Shown here: positions 5,381 through 14,070 of the stretch, piece by piece
How positions within the stretch are numbered: the first letter of the stretch is position 1
Layout: each line of letters starts with the position of its first letter
Assembly (NCBI GenBank): GCA_029821755.1
Contig: JALGSV010000004.1
Coordinates: 186,001 to 250,000, forward strand
From: Candidatus Zipacnadum vermilionense
Lineage (GTDB): Bacteria; Armatimonadota; Zipacnadia; Zipacnadales; Zipacnadaceae
DNA: 64,000 nucleotides
Direction of reading: 5' to 3'
Made by a program: the position numbers and the translations under genes
Notes under the pieces: generated by a model
The model's database searches: none
What the model was told of the DNA's origin: nothing
What the model saw: only the letters and a program-made list of their open reading frames with translations

Positions 5381-5815
5381 TTAGTCCGAGCCGCCCGGGC
5401 CGGGTAGCTCGCCCGCGGCGTGGAGGCGGGCGAGGGCGCGATGGAGGGCGGACTCGGCGCGGGTTACATCCACCTTGCGGGTGCGCGTCTTGGCCAGACG
5501 GGCGCGGGCTCTTCCCGCCGCCGCCTGGGCGCGGACCACGTCTATTTCGGTCGCCAGTTCGGCGGTTTCGAGGACCGCCGTGACCTCATTGTCGCGGACC
5601 TCGACTACCCCGGCCCCGGCGGCGAAGACCAGCCGGGTCTTCCCCGCACCCTCCGTCACTATCAGGTCGCCCGGCACCAGGATTGCGAGCAGCGGCGCAT
5701 GGTCGCCCATGACGCCGAAGTAGCCGTCCGGGGCGCACAGGCGAGCGAGAACGATCTGGCCGTCATACTCGGGCCCCTCGCGGGTTATGATGGCGAAATG
5801 AAAGGCGCGTGGCAC
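5381..5815 (-). CDS. atpC: ATP synthase F1 subunit epsilon
   Basis: Central-stalk subunit that couples rotor to F1 and restrains ATP hydrolysis. The start is GTG 5815 (PRAFHFAIITREGPEYDG), 9 nt after AGGA, giving 144 residues. The frame stays open upstream, but those codons look non-coding. The N-terminal beta sandwich includes APDGYFGVMGDHAPLLA, the typical GxxGILxxHAP-like region. The last 45 residues form the Ala/Arg-rich helical hairpin. It is the last gene of the atp operon, 73 nt after atpD. Confidence 0.9.
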   Translation of the reverse strand: MPRAFHFAIITREGPEYDGQIVLARLCAPDGYFGVMGDHAPLLAILVPGDLIVTEGAGKTRLVFAAGAGVVEVRDNEVTAVLETAELATEIDVVRAQAAAGRARARLAKTRTRKVDVTRAESALHRALARLHAAGELPGPGGSD

Positions 5816-5888: not shown

Positions 5889-7394
<1,506 letters not shown>

Positions 7395-8258
7395 TTATAC
7401 CACTCCGAGGGCGGAGGCGCCGCCAATTACGTCCATAATCTCACTGGTGATGCCGTACTGGCGAGCCCGATTCAGACGGCGGCTGAGGCCGGTGAGCATA
7501 TCCTGGGCCGAGTCGGTGGCCGCGCGCATGGCCGTCATCCGGGCTGCCTGCTCGGCAATGGAGGTGCCCAGTGCCATCTGGTAGAGTACGGCGTCCAGGG
7601 CCTGCGGCATCAGGATCGAGAGCAGTTCCGGCGCGGGCGGATCGTAGTCGTACTGACCCCAGTCCTCCGCTCCCGGCACGTCAATCGCCAGGATAGGCAG
7701 GAACTGCTCCACCTTCGGGCGATGGCGCAGGATCGACTGGAACTCCGCGTAGACTACCTGCACCTGATCCACCACCCCGCTGTCGTACCACGAGCGGACC
7801 TGCCGAGCCAGGGCTAGAGCCGGGCTGGAGCGGCCGAATTCGGTGACCGCTGGGTAGGAGGCAACAATCTCCAGGCCCTGGCGCTCGGCGAAGCGCGTAG
7901 CCTTGGTCCCCACCGTGATCACGCTCACCGAGCCCCGGGCGTGTTGGAGGAAGTCCTCCGCCGTGCGCATGATCTGCTGGTTGAAGGCGCCGGCCAGACC
8001 GCGGTCGCCGGCCATCAGTACCAGGCCGACGTGATTGATGTCGCGCGAGACCAGGTAGGGATGGGTTGTCTCCGGATGGGAGGCGGCGACACGGTGAAGC
8101 AACTCCTCTAGGCGGTCGGCGTAGTCCCGGCCGGCGGTCACGCGCTTCTGTAGCTTCGCCAACTTGGCGGCAGCAACAAACTGCATCGCGCGGGTGATGT
8201 GCTCGATGCTGCGAACGGTCTTGATCTTGCGGCGCAGGTTGCGCAGGTTCCCGGCCAT
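7395..8258 (-). CDS. atpG: ATP synthase F1 subunit gamma
   Basis: Rotating central shaft of F1, 287 residues. The N-terminal coiled coil MAGNLRNLRRKIKTVRSIEH followed by ITRAMQFVAAAK is characteristic. The central Rossmann-like part contains LVLMAGDRGLAGAFN, matching the conserved sDRGLcGgfN. The C-terminal helix includes MTAMRAATDSAQDML. The start lies 6 nt after the atpA stop, so the two are probably translated together. Confidence 0.94.
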   Translation of the reverse strand: MAGNLRNLRRKIKTVRSIEHITRAMQFVAAAKLAKLQKRVTAGRDYADRLEELLHRVAASHPETTHPYLVSRDINHVGLVLMAGDRGLAGAFNQQIMRTAEDFLQHARGSVSVITVGTKATRFAERQGLEIVASYPAVTEFGRSSPALALARQVRSWYDSGVVDQVQVVYAEFQSILRHRPKVEQFLPILAIDVPGAEDWGQYDYDPPAPELLSILMPQALDAVLYQMALGTSIAEQAARMTAMRAATDSAQDMLTGLSRRLNRARQYGITSEIMDVIGGASALGVV

Positions 8259-8264
8259 GTTCGC

Positions 8265-9818
8265 TTACTGTTCCCGCTTGGAATCCGTCTCGGGCCCGGG
8301 GATATTCCCCAGGACCCGCTCCTGGTCTTTGAAGGCGGAGATAGCTTCGGTGAGGGCCGTCGTAGTCGCGTCGCTCAGGGCGCGCTCTTGCTCCAGAGCT
8401 GCGATGGTCTCGGGGTGCTTGTCATGCATCCAGGCCAGCAGGTTCTGCTCCAGCGTGGCGACGGAGTCCACCGGGACGTCGTCCCAGTGATCACGAGTGC
8501 CGGCGAAGAGTACTATGACCTGCTCCACCACGGACATGGGCAGGTACTGTTTCTGCTTGAGCACCTCCACCATCCGCTGGCCGTGGGCGAGGATGCGGCG
8601 GGTATGTTCGTCCAGCTCCGAGGAGAACTGGCTGAAAGCCTCGTACTCACGATAGGCGGCCAGGTCGCTGCGGAGCTGACCGGCGACCTGGCGCATCATC
8701 TTATCCTGGGCCGAGCCGCCAACGCGGGAGACGGAGAGCCCCACGCTGATAGCGGGGCGCACCCCGGCATGGAAGAGGTCCGGCTCCAGGTAGATCTGGC
8801 CGTCGGTGATGGAGATGATATTGGTGGGAATGTAGGCCGAGTAGTCCCCCTCCTGGGTCTCGATGATCGGCAGGGCGGTCAGGGAGCCGCCGCCGAGTTC
8901 ATCGCTCAGCTTGGCCGCACGTTCCAGCAGACGGGCGTGAAGGTAGAAGATGTCGCCCGGGAAGGCCTCGCGGCCCGGAGGTCGGCGTAGGAGCAGGGAG
9001 ACCTCGCGGTAGGCGCGGGCGTGCTTGGAGAGGTCGTCGTAGATGATTAGAGCGTGGCGGCCGTTGTCGCGTTCGTGTTCGCCGATGGTGGCGCCGGCGT
9101 AGGGAGCGACGTAGAGCTGGGCGGGCGGGTCGGAGGCCGCGGCCGCGACGATGCAAGTGTGCTCCATCGCGCCATACTTTTCCAGTGTGGAGGCCAGGCG
9201 ACGCACCTCGGCCAGCTTCTGTCCCACCGCCACGTAGACGCAGCGGATGCCGGTGTGCTTCTGGTTGATGATGGTGTCGATGGCGAGGGCGGTCTTCCCG
9301 ATCTGGCGGTCGCCGATGATCAACTCGCGCTGGCCGCGGCCGATAGGGATCATGGCGTCAATGGCCTTTAGACCGGTGTAAAGCGGCTCGCGCACGGGTT
9401 GGCGGGCCATGACCCCGGGGGCCTTGACTTCCAGAGGCCGGGTCTCGGAGGCATCCAGGTCGCCTTTGCCGTCCAGAGGGACCCCCAGAGGGGTGATGAC
9501 GCGGCCGAAGACGGCCTCGCCGACGACGGTCTCGGCGATGCGGCCCGTGCGGCGGACCTCGTCACCCTCCTTGATCGCCTCGTCGGATCCCAGCAGGATG
9601 CACCCGACGTTGTCCTCCTCCAGGTTCAGGGCGATGCCCATGACCCCACCAGGGAATTGCACCAACTCCTGGGCCATGACCTTGTCGAGACCGTAGACGC
9701 GGGCGATGCCGTCGCCGACTTCGATAACCTGGCCGACGTCCTCCAGGGATAGCCGGTCCTCGTAGGAGGCCAGCTCGCGCTTGAGTACTTCTATAACTTC
9801 ATTGGCTTGGGGAGCCAA
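8265..9818 (-). CDS. atpA: ATP synthase F1 subunit alpha
   Basis: Non-catalytic nucleotide-binding subunit of F1, 517 residues. [15 protein letters not shown] is the P-loop, [17 protein letters not shown] the Walker B region, and [20 protein letters not shown] plus [14 protein letters not shown] near 355-370 (arginine finger region) are diagnostic. The start is TTG 9818, 7 nt after GAGGTG, the same ribosome-site and TTG arrangement as guaB. A family B palindrome lies between it and atpH. Confidence 0.95.
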
Positions 9819-9841
9819 AGTGGTTCACCTCGTAGGCGGAG

Positions 9842-9893
9842 CCTCACCCCCTGCGCCCTCTCCTTGCAGGAGAGGGGCGTGGAGAGGGGGGTT
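9842..9893. repeat. Family B palindrome inside the atp operon (atpH-atpA gap)
   Basis: CCTCACCCCC at 9842 leads into GCCCTCTCC TTGCA GGAGAGGGGC, followed by GGAGAGGGGGG. It occupies most of the 150-nt gap between atpH and atpA, the longest gap inside this otherwise tight operon. Confidence 0.75.
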
Positions 9894-9968
9894 CGGAGAT
9901 GGCAAGTAGGTTGTCTTTACCGCGGACGCATATTTCGCGGAGATACGGTCTCCGCAGAACATTCGCCC

Positions 9969-10535
9969 CTATGCTGACGGTCGTTCTCGCTCCTCGGCGA
10001 GCGGCCGAGAGAGATATTCCTCCAGGCGCTCCAGGCGGCCGATCAGGCTCTCGTCGAGAATCTCGCTGTTCACCTGCAGGCGCAGGCCGCCGAGTAGGTC
10101 GGGCACCACCTGGTGCGCCACGCGTACCGGCCGGCCCAGCAGGCCCCCGAGGGCCGCCTCCAGGCGCTGGACCTGGGCGTGACTCAATTCGGCCGCGCTC
10201 TCCACGAAGACCGGTTGCAGGCCCTCCCGCTTGTCCTTGACGTCCCGGAGCAACGCCGTCAACCGAGCCAGGTCCACGAAATGGTGCCGCTCCAGGAGCA
10301 GCGCCAGGAAGCGCCCGAGCAGCGGGGGCGCACCCTCGCCCAGGGGAGCCAGGAGTAGCCTCAGCTTCTCGTCCACAGGGACACCCGGGTGCTGCGCCAG
10401 GCGCATGACCTCGGGAGTGCGCTCCACCGCCCGCACCAGGGTCTCCAGGTCCGCTAGCACCGCCGGGAGCTGCTTTTCAGCTTCGGCCTCGTCGTACAGG
10501 GCGGCAGCGTAGTTGCGCAAGGCAGCGGTGTCCAT
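9969..10535 (-). CDS. atpH: ATP synthase F1 subunit delta
   Basis: Peripheral-stalk subunit linking b to the top of F1, 188 residues. The N-terminal six-helix domain begins MDTAALRNYAAALYDEAEA. The C-terminal half has VAHQVVPDLLGGLRLQVNSE and LDESLIGRLERLEEYL, matching the conserved delta/OSCP ending (dpsligGlrvrvgd...DgSvrgqLerL). It starts 3 nt after the atpF stop. The family is divergent, so position in the operon adds weight. Confidence 0.9.
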   Translation of the reverse strand: MDTAALRNYAAALYDEAEAEKQLPAVLADLETLVRAVERTPEVMRLAQHPGVPVDEKLRLLLAPLGEGAPPLLGRFLALLLERHHFVDLARLTALLRDVKDKREGLQPVFVESAAELSHAQVQRLEAALGGLLGRPVRVAHQVVPDLLGGLRLQVNSEILDESLIGRLERLEEYLSRPLAEERERPSA

Positions 10536-10538
10536 CGG

Positions 10539-11057
10539 CTAGTTCGATTCCTGCTGCGCCAGTTGCTCGATGTGGCGCACGGCGGCCTCGACGGAGGTCT
10601 GGCGCTCGTCGGGACCCAGGGCCCGAGCGAGGGCGCGGCGCGCGATATCGGTGGCCAAGTCGGCGGTGTGAGCCCGTAACTCCTGGCGGGCCACCGTGAC
10701 GTCGCGGTGGAGCTCGTCCTCGGCGTGGCGTTTGCGCTCACGGGCGAGGCGGTTGGCCTCGTCCATGATCTTCTGAGCCTCCTCGCGGGCGGCTTGGCGC
10801 TGGCGGTCGGCCTCCCGGGCCAGGTCTTCCTGGACCTGCTGGTGACGCGCGTCCATCTCCGCCAACTCCTGTTTGGCCTGCGCACGGGCTCTCTCCGCTT
10901 CGGACATCTGGTCCTGGAGGTGCCGAGCGCGGTCGCTCAGGAACCGTCCGAAGGGGCGGAAGAAAAAGCGGGTAAGCAGGATCAACACCACGACAAAAGC
11001 GCCGAGGTTGATGATGAGCACCCTGAAGTCAATGCCTAAGTCATGCAGCAGTTGCAT
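10539..11057 (-). CDS. atpF: ATP synthase F0 subunit b
   Basis: Peripheral stalk, 172 residues. One N-terminal membrane helix (about 12-32, VLIINLGAFVVVLILLTRFF) is followed by FRPFGRFLSDRARHLQDQM and a long charged right-handed coiled coil (about 40-150) rich in Ala, Glu, Arg and Gln. This is standard F0 b. An AAAGGA ribosome site lies 6 nt before the ATG. It lies between atpE and atpH. Confidence 0.92.
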   Translation of the reverse strand: MQLLHDLGIDFRVLIINLGAFVVVLILLTRFFFRPFGRFLSDRARHLQDQMSEAERARAQAKQELAEMDARHQQVQEDLAREADRQRQAAREEAQKIMDEANRLARERKRHAEDELHRDVTVARQELRAHTADLATDIARRALARALGPDERQTSVEAAVRHIEQLAQQESN

Positions 11058-11088
11058 GGCCGGTCCTTTCTGCGGAGCCGGGCGTCAG

Positions 11089-11355
11089 CTAGCCGCTCTG
11101 GACTTTGTCCAGCATCTTGGCCAGATTCGGCCAGAGCAGGAAGAAGGTGAGCAGGGCGTACAGGACCAGCGACTCGACGAAGGCCAAAGAGATGATCAGG
11201 AGTACCCGGATCTCCCCCGCGGCCTCGGGCTGGCGGGCGATACCATCTAGGGCGGCGGCGGCCGCCCGCCCCTGCGCGGCGGCCCCGCCCAGCACCGCAA
11301 TGGGTACTCCCAGGGCCAGACCGAAGAAAGCTATAGCTAAGCCTATCATCGTCAT
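11089..11355 (-). CDS. atpE: ATP synthase F0 subunit c, with Na+-type ligand residues
   Basis: Rotor-ring proteolipid, 88 residues with two membrane helices and the polar loop ARQPEAAGEI (40-49). The ion-binding carboxylate is E61 in LAFVESLVLY. Aligning on ARQPEA and E61 places Q28, S62 and Y66 at the positions of Gln32, Ser66 and Tyr70 that coordinate Na+ in Ilyobacter tartaricus c, where the carboxylate is Glu65. The residue after S62 is Leu rather than Thr. Na+ coupling is therefore possible but not shown. GGAGG lies 9 nt before ATG 11355. Confidence 0.93.
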   Translation of the reverse strand: MTMIGLAIAFFGLALGVPIAVLGGAAAQGRAAAAALDGIARQPEAAGEIRVLLIISLAFVESLVLYALLTFFLLWPNLAKMLDKVQSG

Positions 11356-11420
11356 ACTATACTACCTCCCGGCGCCGGGTCGGCGCCTTATCACCTGCGA
11401 ATGGAACGGCGCGGTCGCTG

Positions 11421-12215
11421 CTACTCCATCTCGATGGCCAGCAGCACGTATACACCAGTCAGAAGGGAAAACACGAAGGCCTGGATGAAGCCCATGAAGA
11501 TGGCAAAGCAGACCATTAAGGCGGTGAAGGCCATGCCCAGGACCGCCCCAGCGGCGCCACCGATCTGCACTAGCGCCGAGGCGCCCAAAGGGTTGAACAG
11601 CAGCCCGATCGCTCCGGCTCCCAACAGGGCAAACTGTGCGACGGCGGTATCATCCCCGAACACATTGCCGAAGAGACGGATGGCCAGCGAGAGCGGCTTG
11701 ATCAGCTCCTCAACTATGTGCAGGAGGAACATCAGCGGGAACAGGAACGGCACCAGGTAGAAAGGGATGCCCGCCATGCTGGGGAGCCAGCGTTTTATGT
11801 ACCCGGGGCCGTTGACGCGCCAGCCGATCACCTGCGCGCTGATAATGGAGGCCAGCCCCAGCGCCAGGGTGGTGCTCAGCCGCGAGGTGGGGCTGAGGAA
11901 ACCGGGGATCAGGCCGAACAGGTTGAGGAAGAGCACGAACAGAAAGAAGCTGCCGATAATGGGCGTGTAGCGCTCCCCATGGTGGGGGATGATGGAGCGG
12001 CTCAGGCCCTCCAGCGCCTCGTAGACCCATTCGCCGAAAAGCTGCAGCTTGCCCGTGGGCGCTACCTGCAATCGGCGGCTGGCCAGCCAGGCCACCACCC
12101 CCAGGAAAACGACCACCAGGAGGGTGTGGAGGACGAAGACGTCCAGATAGGGCCGCAGCCAGGCGGGCTCCAAGGCCACCACGGCGTTCAGCCAACTAGC
12201 GTGATGTTCTTCCAT
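11421..12215 (-). CDS. atpB: ATP synthase F0 subunit a
   Basis: Integral membrane stator that forms the ion half-channels against the c ring, 264 residues with 5-6 membrane helices. The signature helix IKPLSLAIRLFGNVFGDD (near 180-197) carries the essential Arg, and the C-terminal helix FIQAFVFSLLTGVYVLLAIE the conserved Gln. The N-terminus (HTLLVVVFLGVVAWLAS) is shorter than in E. coli, as in many non-proteobacterial a subunits. No strong ribosome site is visible at the chosen ATG. Confidence 0.93.
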   Translation of the reverse strand: MEEHHASWLNAVVALEPAWLRPYLDVFVLHTLLVVVFLGVVAWLASRRLQVAPTGKLQLFGEWVYEALEGLSRSIIPHHGERYTPIIGSFFLFVLFLNLFGLIPGFLSPTSRLSTTLALGLASIISAQVIGWRVNGPGYIKRWLPSMAGIPFYLVPFLFPLMFLLHIVEELIKPLSLAIRLFGNVFGDDTAVAQFALLGAGAIGLLFNPLGASALVQIGGAAGAVLGMAFTALMVCFAIFMGFIQAFVFSLLTGVYVLLAIEME

Positions 12216-12252: not shown

Positions 12253-12663
12253 TCACCGGCCGGTACCGGTAAGATGCCGGCGCACCCCGAGTCGGAGCGC
12301 GAGAACCGTGGCCAGGGCCACGGGGGTTAACAAGCCACAGAAAATGGCCCACTCGTTGAGTCTGAAGTGAGCCACCAAAAGGTACAGTCCGGCGATTAGG
12401 ACTGCGTACTTCAGAAGCTGCGCTAACAACGGAATCGCCGCGCCGCGCCGCGGCCGCCCCTCGCGGCCGCGGGGTGCAATGGCATGGTAGACCATCCAGG
12501 CCAGGCCGGTCAGGGAAACCAGACCCAGGGCCACGCCGCCGGTGTACCCCCAGGCTACCGAGGGCGCACCCCGCCACCAGGCCACCGGGGCAACTAGCAA
12601 CGAGAAGGCGGCGGAAAAACACGCCGTCCGCCTGACTAGTTCATACCCCAGTTCCTCAGTCAT
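12253..12663 (-). CDS. atpI: ATP synthase accessory membrane protein AtpI-like
   Basis: A 136-residue protein with four predicted membrane helices (about 15-30, 38-58, 78-98, 105-122), first or second in many atp operons. AtpI proteins assist c-ring assembly or ion supply to F0. The start MTEELGYEL overlaps the end of the preceding atpZ-like gene by 8 nt. The open frame extends to 12798, but that part is the shadow of atpZ. Assignment rests mainly on topology, length and position, because the family is poorly conserved. Confidence 0.75.
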   Translation of the reverse strand: MTEELGYELVRRTACFSAAFSLLVAPVAWWRGAPSVAWGYTGGVALGLVSLTGLAWMVYHAIAPRGREGRPRRGAAIPLLAQLLKYAVLIAGLYLLVAHFRLNEWAIFCGLLTPVALATVLALRLGVRRHLTGTGR

Positions 12664-12889
12664 CTCTCGGTAGGCGGCGCAGTTCCCGGAAGACACCGTA
12701 GAAGGCAGTCGCGACGCCCAGGAAGAAACCCACGATCGTCCAGACGACGCCTCCGCCCCACTTGCGGTCCGCAAGGAGGCCCAGGTAGCTACACGCACCT
12801 ACGCAGAGAAACATGTAGATGCCCAGGCTACTCCAGCGCGTAGCCTCAATCCACGCCAAACGCTCCTTCTCGTCGCGTGCCCATCGCAC
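12656..12889 (-). CDS. atpZ: AtpZ/AtpI-type small membrane protein, first gene of the atp operon
   Basis: About 77 residues with two membrane helices (SLGIYMFLCVGACSYLGLL and VVWTIVGFFLGVATAFYGVF) separated by ADRKWGGG. This matches the putative F0F1-ATPase subunit family, whose hallmark is a (D/G)xxxG hairpin. A frame beginning ATG 12919 would add ten residues, but that ATG overlaps the -35 box of a strong promoter whose predicted start falls exactly on GTG 12889. The GTG start, and hence a leaderless message, is preferred. It overlaps atpI and is probably co-translated with it. Confidence 0.75.
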   Translation of the reverse strand: MRWARDEKERLAWIEATRWSSLGIYMFLCVGACSYLGLLADRKWGGGVVWTIVGFFLGVATAFYGVFRELRRLPRDD

Positions 12890-12895
12890 AGAGAA

Positions 12896-12924
12896 AGAAT
12901 AGTCCTCCACAAGGAGCATGTCAA
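12896..12924 (-). promoter_or_regulatory. Near-consensus sigma70 promoter of the atp operon
   Basis: Minus strand: TTGACA (12924-12919), spacer of exactly 17 nt, TATTCT (12901-12896). The expected +1 is 12889, the G of the GTG start codon of the atpZ-like gene. No other candidate promoter was noticed in the 120 nt upstream of the operon. Confidence 0.7.
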
Positions 12925-13009: not shown

Positions 13010-14029
13010 CTACTGGTACAGCCAAGCCGCGACGGTGTCGCCTACCTCACGGAGGGCGGAGGGCTGGCAGTACTCGGGGACGTCATCGGCGGTGTGCCAG
13101 ACGGGGGGCGGGAAGTCGATTATGTCCACCGTGGGGATACCGACGCGGTTGAAAGCCAGGTGGTCGTCGGTGACCGCGAATTGGGTGGTGCGCTTGAAGG
13201 CCGCGTGGCCGCGCTCCTCCGCCAGGGTCCAGAGCTGGTCCACCACCTCCGGGGCCTTCTGGAGGGAGTTGAGCTCGATGCGGAGGTCGAAAACATCGTT
13301 CCCGCCCAGGTCGGTGCGTACCGGTACGCGGTCGTTGTGCTTGGTGCCGCCGACCAGGTCCAGAATGGCGCCACGCGTCGGACGGGGCAGGTCCGCGGGC
13401 CAGTGTTGGGCGAGGTAGTTAGCGCCCAGGCAAAAGCCCTGGTCCAAGAGGCCAGAGCCGCTCTTGCCGGAGTCCTCGGCGTCCAGAAAGAGTAGGTAGA
13501 CGGGGTGGAGCGGGGGCGTGGCTTTGAGCAGGCGGGCCAGTTCGAGCAGGATGGCGACGCCCGAGGCCCCGTCGTTGGCGCCCATGACGGGCTGGGTGTG
13601 CTTGGCCGGGTCGGGGTCCTCATCGGCCTCCGGGCGGGTGTCCCAATGCGCGCCGACGAAGGTAGCCGCGCCGGGAGCAGCGCCCCCGAAGACGGCAATC
13701 AAGTTGACGAAATCATAGGGGCCGCCGAAGGCAGTGGCAGTATTGAAGGGCTGCTCGACAACGCGGTCGGCCAGGGGCTGGAGGGTGGCGCGCATCCACA
13801 CCAACTGGGCCTGATGCCCGGCCGAGCCGGGGGGGCGGGCGCCAAAGCTACATTGCTTCTCCAGATCAGCGAAGGCCCGGTCGGCCAGGAAGACGGGAAC
13901 GTCCACTACCGGGGGGGCCTGCTCGGAGCCGCCTCCGCAAGCGCCGGAACTGCCCACCAGGACCAGCGCGACAAGAATCGCTAGACGTGCCCAGGGAAGG
14001 TTGGCCGGTCCAGGTTTCGGCAAGATCAT
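13010..14029 (-). CDS. Lipoprotein M28-family peptidase, glutaminyl-peptide cyclotransferase-like
   Basis: Exported zinc enzyme of the M28 fold, 339 residues. The signal peptide LAILVALVLVGSSGAC ends in a lipobox cysteine, so it is probably membrane-anchored outside the cytoplasm. Zinc-site and acid motifs are GAHWDTRPEAD (His, Asp), GANDGASGVAILLEL (Asp), LLFLDAEDSG (Glu/Asp) and WHTADDVPEYC (His). TDDHLAFNRVGIPTVDIID closely follows glutaminyl cyclases, which turn N-terminal Gln into pyroglutamate. Aminopeptidase activity is the alternative. GGAG lies 4 nt before ATG 14029. It ends just upstream of the atp promoter. Confidence 0.82.
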   Translation of the reverse strand: MILPKPGPANLPWARLAILVALVLVGSSGACGGGSEQAPPVVDVPVFLADRAFADLEKQCSFGARPPGSAGHQAQLVWMRATLQPLADRVVEQPFNTATAFGGPYDFVNLIAVFGGAAPGAATFVGAHWDTRPEADEDPDPAKHTQPVMGANDGASGVAILLELARLLKATPPLHPVYLLFLDAEDSGKSGSGLLDQGFCLGANYLAQHWPADLPRPTRGAILDLVGGTKHNDRVPVRTDLGGNDVFDLRIELNSLQKAPEVVDQLWTLAEERGHAAFKRTTQFAVTDDHLAFNRVGIPTVDIIDFPPPVWHTADDVPEYCQPSALREVGDTVAAWLYQ

Positions 14030-14070
14030 CACTCTCCAACTTCAAAAGGGGGCCTAAAGAGCGCGAAGAC

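Follow-up and report, generated by a model that had tools for sequence, protein, structure and literature searches.

A predicted leaderless GTG start for atpZ, the first gene of an ATP synthase operon in Candidatus Zipacnadum vermilionense

Where does a ribosome begin on an ATP synthase message whose first start codon seems to coincide with the start of the transcript? The question is raised by atpZ, which heads the F-type atp operon in a window of 64,000 nt from the genome of Candidatus Zipacnadum vermilionense (JALGSV010000004.1, positions 186,001-250,000; G000 below); all coordinates count within this window. We compared the locus with its counterparts in the genus (n = 3: G000, G001 and G002), the family (n = 15) and the order (n = 41), each set including G000. 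From the geometry of the promoter and from this comparison we consider it likely that the atp message starts at G12889 and that atpZ is read from a 5'-terminal GUG, without a leader or a Shine-Dalgarno (SD) sequence. The elements concerned are:

12919..12924, minus strand: -35 hexamer TTGACA, from a motif scan; at least five of six positions match at 33 of 35 order loci
12904..12908, minus strand: GGAGG within the promoter spacer; its 14-nt distance from the GTG falls outside the range of SD spacings in G000, and it is off the predicted transcript
12896..12901, minus strand: -10 hexamer TATTCT behind a 17-nt spacer; TATCCT in G001 and TATGCT in G002
12890..12895, minus strand: discriminator TTCTCT, all pyrimidine; the first purine beyond it is the G of the GTG
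12887..12889, minus strand: GTG start codon at the predicted +1, from geometry and comparison
12656..12889, minus strand: atpZ (PF09527), 77 amino acids from GTG 12889; Pfam E 9.8e-13, 48.4 bits against a cut-off of 26.6, computed on the frame read from 12919

A discriminator is usually 6 nt long. Because 6 nt follow TATTCT, we infer that transcription starts at the G of GTG 12889; the sequence-only reading of this DNA had placed TTGACA-N17-TATTCT with its +1 on that codon, and on the minus strand the placement is exact. The interval of 6 nt between the end of the -10 and the GTG falls within the range of about 6-8 nt that marks leaderless genes. GTG 12889 has no usable SD, as the nearest GGAGG lies 14 nt off and upstream of the predicted +1, and no in-frame start of atpZ in G000 has an SD at the spacing that is normal for this genome. 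The most upstream ATG, GTG or TTG in the atpZ frame is ATG 12919, which overlaps the -35 box, as the earlier reading had said in calling it the only upstream ATG; that reading left unmentioned two further in-frame codons, namely GTG 12910, which lies inside the promoter spacer and hence off the predicted transcript, and TTG 12859, to which we return below. A scan of 11 kb found four promoter-like sites, against 0.9 +/- 0.8 in shuffled sequence, and the atpZ promoter is one of the two among them that match at 10 of 12 positions. By itself such a scan with shuffles is weak evidence, and the stronger evidence is comparative.

For the comparison we defined a promoter as a TTGACA-like -35 with at least five of six matches, a spacer of 16-18 nt and a TA-type -10. 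The region upstream of atpZ was compared at 35 order loci, and a near-consensus promoter precedes the gene at 33 of them, which argues that the atpZ promoter is not a chance alignment. The two loci that fail the rule are G026, with a promoter 56 nt before an ATG, and G031, at a contig end. Outside the 35 stand G032, which has an SD leader, G017 and G030, which are cut by contig ends, and G013, G029 and G039, which have no PF09527 match. Where an order genome has two such matches, as 12 do, a single copy was taken; the second copies, which we take to resemble N-type ATPase proteins, were set aside by eye.

All three members of the genus keep the start layout, with an in-frame GTG 6-7 nt past the -10: TTGACA-17-TATTCT-6-GTG in G000, TTGACA-17-TATCCT-7-GTG in G001 and TTGACA-18-TATGCT-6-GTG in G002. 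The distance from the -35 to the GTG changes by a single base (35 nt in G000, 36 nt in G001 and G002), and therefore the sequence before the GTG is not translated in a conserved frame. Ahead of the -35, G000 and G001 are identical at 22/60 positions, and within the spacer at 4/17; from the GTG on the figure rises to 25/36. The layout in the genus, this pattern of identity and the absence of an SD at normal spacing support, as a prediction, the leaderless GTG 12889 start that had been proposed from the letters of the window.

Across the order the in-frame ATG and GTG codons fall into two groups. At 6-8 nt past the -10 they occur at 11 of the 33 loci, against a background of 12 in 338 in-frame codons; the nominal P of 1e-8 for this excess is not to be taken literally, since the loci are related. 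None of the 33 has such a codon at 9-11 nt, and the counts then rise from 3 (12-14 nt) and 4 (15-17 nt) to 11 (18-20 nt) and 9 (21-23 nt) before falling to 3 (24-26 nt), so that the distribution is bimodal, with a second mode at 15-26 nt in which most loci have an SD. Seven of the 11 loci have clear leaderless layouts (G000, G001, G002, G004, G015, G020 and G025), with GTG in six and ATG in one. Three are less clear, namely G023, where an ATG at 22 nt is SD-led, and the pair G024 and G028, with a GTG at 8 nt and more GTGs besides; the remaining one, G007, is taken up below. Counting G007, eight leaderless layouts form three deep clades in a tree of AtpB (40 rows; G014, a short fragment, and G023 are absent), and the end branches of these clades measure 0.15-0.67 changes per site. 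At such lengths synonymous DNA should be saturated, and the shared layout is therefore unlikely to reflect mere recent ancestry. In two other genera of the same family, g2 (six loci) and g4 (three loci), and in family f5 the promoter is kept and a start is offered at 16-24 nt, in most cases behind a leader whose SD pairs well (best -10.9 kcal/mol; weaker in G008, -6.1, and G038, -3.0). As judged from the sequences, one promoter is kept across the order, and what varies is whether the start codon coincides with the predicted +1 or follows a short leader.

From these observations we propose that a housekeeping promoter of the sigma-70 type would start transcription at G12889 (+/-1), that the message would begin pppGUG, this triplet being the atpZ start codon with neither leader nor SD ahead of it, and that a 70S ribosome, following the route established for leaderless messages, would start on this 5'-terminal GUG and yield an AtpZ of 77 amino acids. 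A variant compatible with this proposal is that the choice of start site is imprecise, or that the message carries a leader of 1-2 nt and would be better called near-leaderless. We hold this variant to be possible but not probable: among the relatives the start lies anywhere from 6 to 8 nt past the -10, whereas in G000 the discriminator is wholly pyrimidine, so that the G of the GTG is the first purine beyond the -10.

A more distinct alternative keeps the promoter and moves translation downstream, to a start within the frame:

12857..12868, minus strand: TTG 12859 with AAGGAG 3 nt upstream; a rival start, disfavoured

In this case the message would have a leader of 30 nt containing AAGGAG, and GTG 12889 would lie near the 5' end by chance. 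The computed SD pairing is indeed strong (dG -8.8), and TTG is probably a start elsewhere in the operon, at atpA (TTG 9818, dG -7.2). The spacing speaks against it, however: among 1224 candidate starts (847 kb of G000), 39 have AAGGAG 7-10 nt upstream, four have it at 2 nt and not one has it at 3 nt. TTG 12859 is also absent from G001 and G002, while the GTG is conserved in all three genomes, and the match of the 12 codons from the GTG between G000 and G001 runs contrary to a start at the TTG. An AtpZ begun there would have just two residues ahead of a Trp found at 13 of the 14 family loci (all but G002). We regard translation from the TTG as improbable. Most improbable of the three is a main transcript from further upstream, by read-through from the M28-type peptidase gene or from another promoter, with GTG 12889 or ATG 12919 used behind a leader: our scan found no terminator-like site between 13010 and 12925 and a GGAGG does stand 14 nt before the GTG, but conservation across the order extends to the atpZ promoter and not to the gene ahead of it, a GGAGG 14 nt from the start is no commoner than background in G000 (3 cases before the same 1224 candidate starts, compared with 145 at 5-12 nt), and ATG 12919 has an SD of only dG -2.5 and no ATG at the equivalent place in G001 or G002.

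The preferred reading, initiation at a 5'-terminal GUG, has to be set against several observations that do not favour it. G000 is an SD-type genome: 42% of 514 genes have a pairing energy of dG <= -8, against 15% of 512 controls, and the one 16S match in the assembly (L118 / L112) carries an intact anti-SD, GGATCACCTCCTTT. In 847 kb of G000, the positions of a TANNNT motif taken alone form no peak 6-8 nt upstream of candidate starts, although this test is blunt, its gene starts coming from a simple purpose-made caller that missed atpZ and atpI. In the 41 order genomes the promoter pattern is followed by ATG or GTG (RTG) at 6-7 nt in 836 cases and at 11-12 nt in 731, which is a slight excess. 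The contrast in identity seen between G000 and G001 is weaker with G002, which agrees with G000 at 8/17 spacer positions and 17/36 after the GTG and with G001 at 5/17 and 17/36. Two of the supporting loci could be leadered, namely G007, where the 7-nt layout is accompanied by an in-frame ATG 22 nt past the -10, and G001 itself, where a second GTG 46 nt past the -10 has a better SD (dG -10.4) and a second, shorter AtpZ product from it is possible. The first 45 nt of the predicted messages fold at -10.6 (G000), -16.2 (G001) and -15.0 (G002) kcal/mol, raw values taken without a shuffled control, and in the G002 fold the GTG is paired. An unstructured 5' end, as reported for leaderless messages of Caulobacter (PMC4117421), is thus not seen in the three genus members, but it is a tendency and not a defining trait. 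Finally, leaderless GUG is reported to be poor in E. coli, with a similar trend in Caulobacter (PMC9031893).

Because the TANNNT peak is missing, leaderless initiation appears to be rare in G000, and the large share of TA-like signals expected of a leaderless-rich genome of the Actinobacteria or Deinococcus-Thermus type was not found in its 847 kb. With the added demand for a -35 that matches at four or more of six positions, G000 has 11 starts at 6-8 nt that are in frame, compared with 3 and 1 for the two remaining frames, a small excess. Counts of a promoter followed by RTG at 6-7 nt versus 11-12 nt are 18 versus 14 in G000, 23 versus 14 in G002 and 10 versus 10 in G001. Of the matches at 6-7 nt in G001 and G002 together, 12 of the 30 examined (33 found) have an open reading frame of at least 150 amino acids that begins at the RTG, as do 4 of 24 at 11-12 nt, while 25% of 4194 random RTG in G000 open such a frame; this excess at 6-7 nt is suggestive only. 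WhiB was found in none of the 41 order genomes, with Corynebacterium glutamicum positive as a control, and on this ground the lineage is probably not actinobacterial.

How unusual would such a start be? The sequence-only reading had called leaderless initiation of a major energy operon unusual outside Actinobacteria, Deinococcus and archaea. This is too strong, given that Acidobacteria, Aquificae, Proteobacteria, Firmicutes and others are reported to have leaderless genes (PMC3160421) and that 375 have been mapped in Caulobacter (PMC4117421). An earlier report describes energy genes as tending toward SD-led starts, and a leaderless ATP synthase example is for that reason mildly unusual; a limited literature search, which included PMC4895711, PMC4176332, PMC10641625 and PMC9045368, found no report of an F-type atp operon whose first gene is leaderless. 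Known leaderless genes carry a TA-like signal some 10 bp ahead of their start codon (Zheng 2011, PMC3160421; Deinococcus-Thermus, PMC12340547), and the locus resembles them in that its -10 ends 6-8 nt before the start, no SD is present and the gene is the first of its operon. Unlike those genes, it has a full TTGACA -35 at consensus spacing, lies in an SD-type genome and has sister genera in which SD leaders stand behind this promoter. In mycobacteria leaderless GUG works well, and a 5'-terminal ATG or GTG is the whole initiation signal of leaderless RTG transcripts (Shell 2015, PMC4633059), as would be the case here; unlike in mycobacteria, the leaderless class of the atpZ lineage looks small, is predicted only and comes without WhiB. 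We therefore view the atpZ start as a prediction with good support, an uncommon instance of a mode of translation initiation that is already known. Its least ordinary feature is that a 5'-terminal GUG should be conserved where WhiB is absent. If the prediction is correct, ribosomes of an SD-type and probably non-actinobacterial lineage would enter a core energy operon by way of a leaderless GUG, and its conservation would point to ribosomes that tolerate such a start, given the poor use reported for E. coli and Caulobacter (PMC9031893). The sister genera, with the same promoter and an SD leader, would then offer a natural comparison of the gain and loss of a leader.

Behind atpZ the operon is laid out as follows:

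12656..12663, minus strand: ATGACTGA, in which the atpZ stop overlaps the codon where atpI likely starts; atpI has no SD ahead of it
12253..12663, minus strand: atpI-like gene; PF03899 at 21.6 bits, below the cut-off of 25.1
5889..12215, minus strand: atpB-E-F-H-A-G-D, by Pfam

The order atpZ-I-B-E-F-H-A-G-D, with the PF09527 gene before atpI and atpB and with atpC probably following at 5381, is that of other bacterial F-type atp operons headed by atpZ and atpI in both the content and the order of genes. An M28-type peptidase gene (13010-14032) precedes atpZ in all three genus members and in none of the other loci among the 49 searched; the promoter therefore goes with atpZ and not with the upstream neighbour.

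The likely start of atpI has no SD of its own (dG +1.0). Because of this absence and of the overlap at ATGACTGA, atpI would probably be translated by coupling to atpZ, while the genes from atpB onward would use their own start sites. An overlap of the form ATGAxTGA or ATGAxTAA occurs at the atpZ/atpI junction of 12 of the 14 family loci, and G001 and G002 overlap in another way; the recurrence suggests a conserved translational coupling. The strongest SD among the operon genes tested, which did not include atpD, is that of atpE (-11.6). Its product is needed in about ten copies. AtpZ and AtpI are accessory proteins, presumably needed in few copies, and the arrangement would fit a low output of the two.

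It is tempting to go further and to suppose that selection keeps the leaderless GUG head as a control point, at which 70S initiation on the 5'-terminal GUG would set the rate of AtpZ and coupled AtpI apart from the strongly SD-led c subunit. In such a scheme the promoter would be fixed while the start codon shifts from genus to genus, lying at the transcription start in some and behind an SD leader in others, and the scheme would require non-actinobacterial ribosomes to accept a leaderless GUG well. We think this rather unlikely.

On the basis of the sequences surveyed, leaderless genes may be a small minority class in the genus, and we noted several other candidates. A MarR-like regulator, named by eye (L096 in G000 and L142 in G002), and a protein of 457/461 amino acids (L093 in G000 and L136 in G002) both start 7-8 nt past a -10, and a small probable membrane protein (L101 in G000 and L149 in G001) starts 6 nt past one. 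The carA gene of G000 (L095:14783-15988) has its ATG 6 nt past TACAAT, with a weak -35; none of the five relatives displayed shows this layout, and the copies from G001 and G002 are partial. In pheA, which encodes chorismate mutase-prephenate dehydratase (L103:2572-3636 in G000; L152 in G002), the ATG lies 7 nt past TGCTACCAT. These leaderless-type starts of pheA have no SD (dG +0.9 in G000 and +0.6 in G002), whereas G003, G004 and G015 have a longer leader with an SD (dG -6.0, -10.7 and -6.4, respectively), preceded in G003 and G004 by TGCTAACAT. The pheA gene thus appears to switch between layouts in a manner like that of atpZ.
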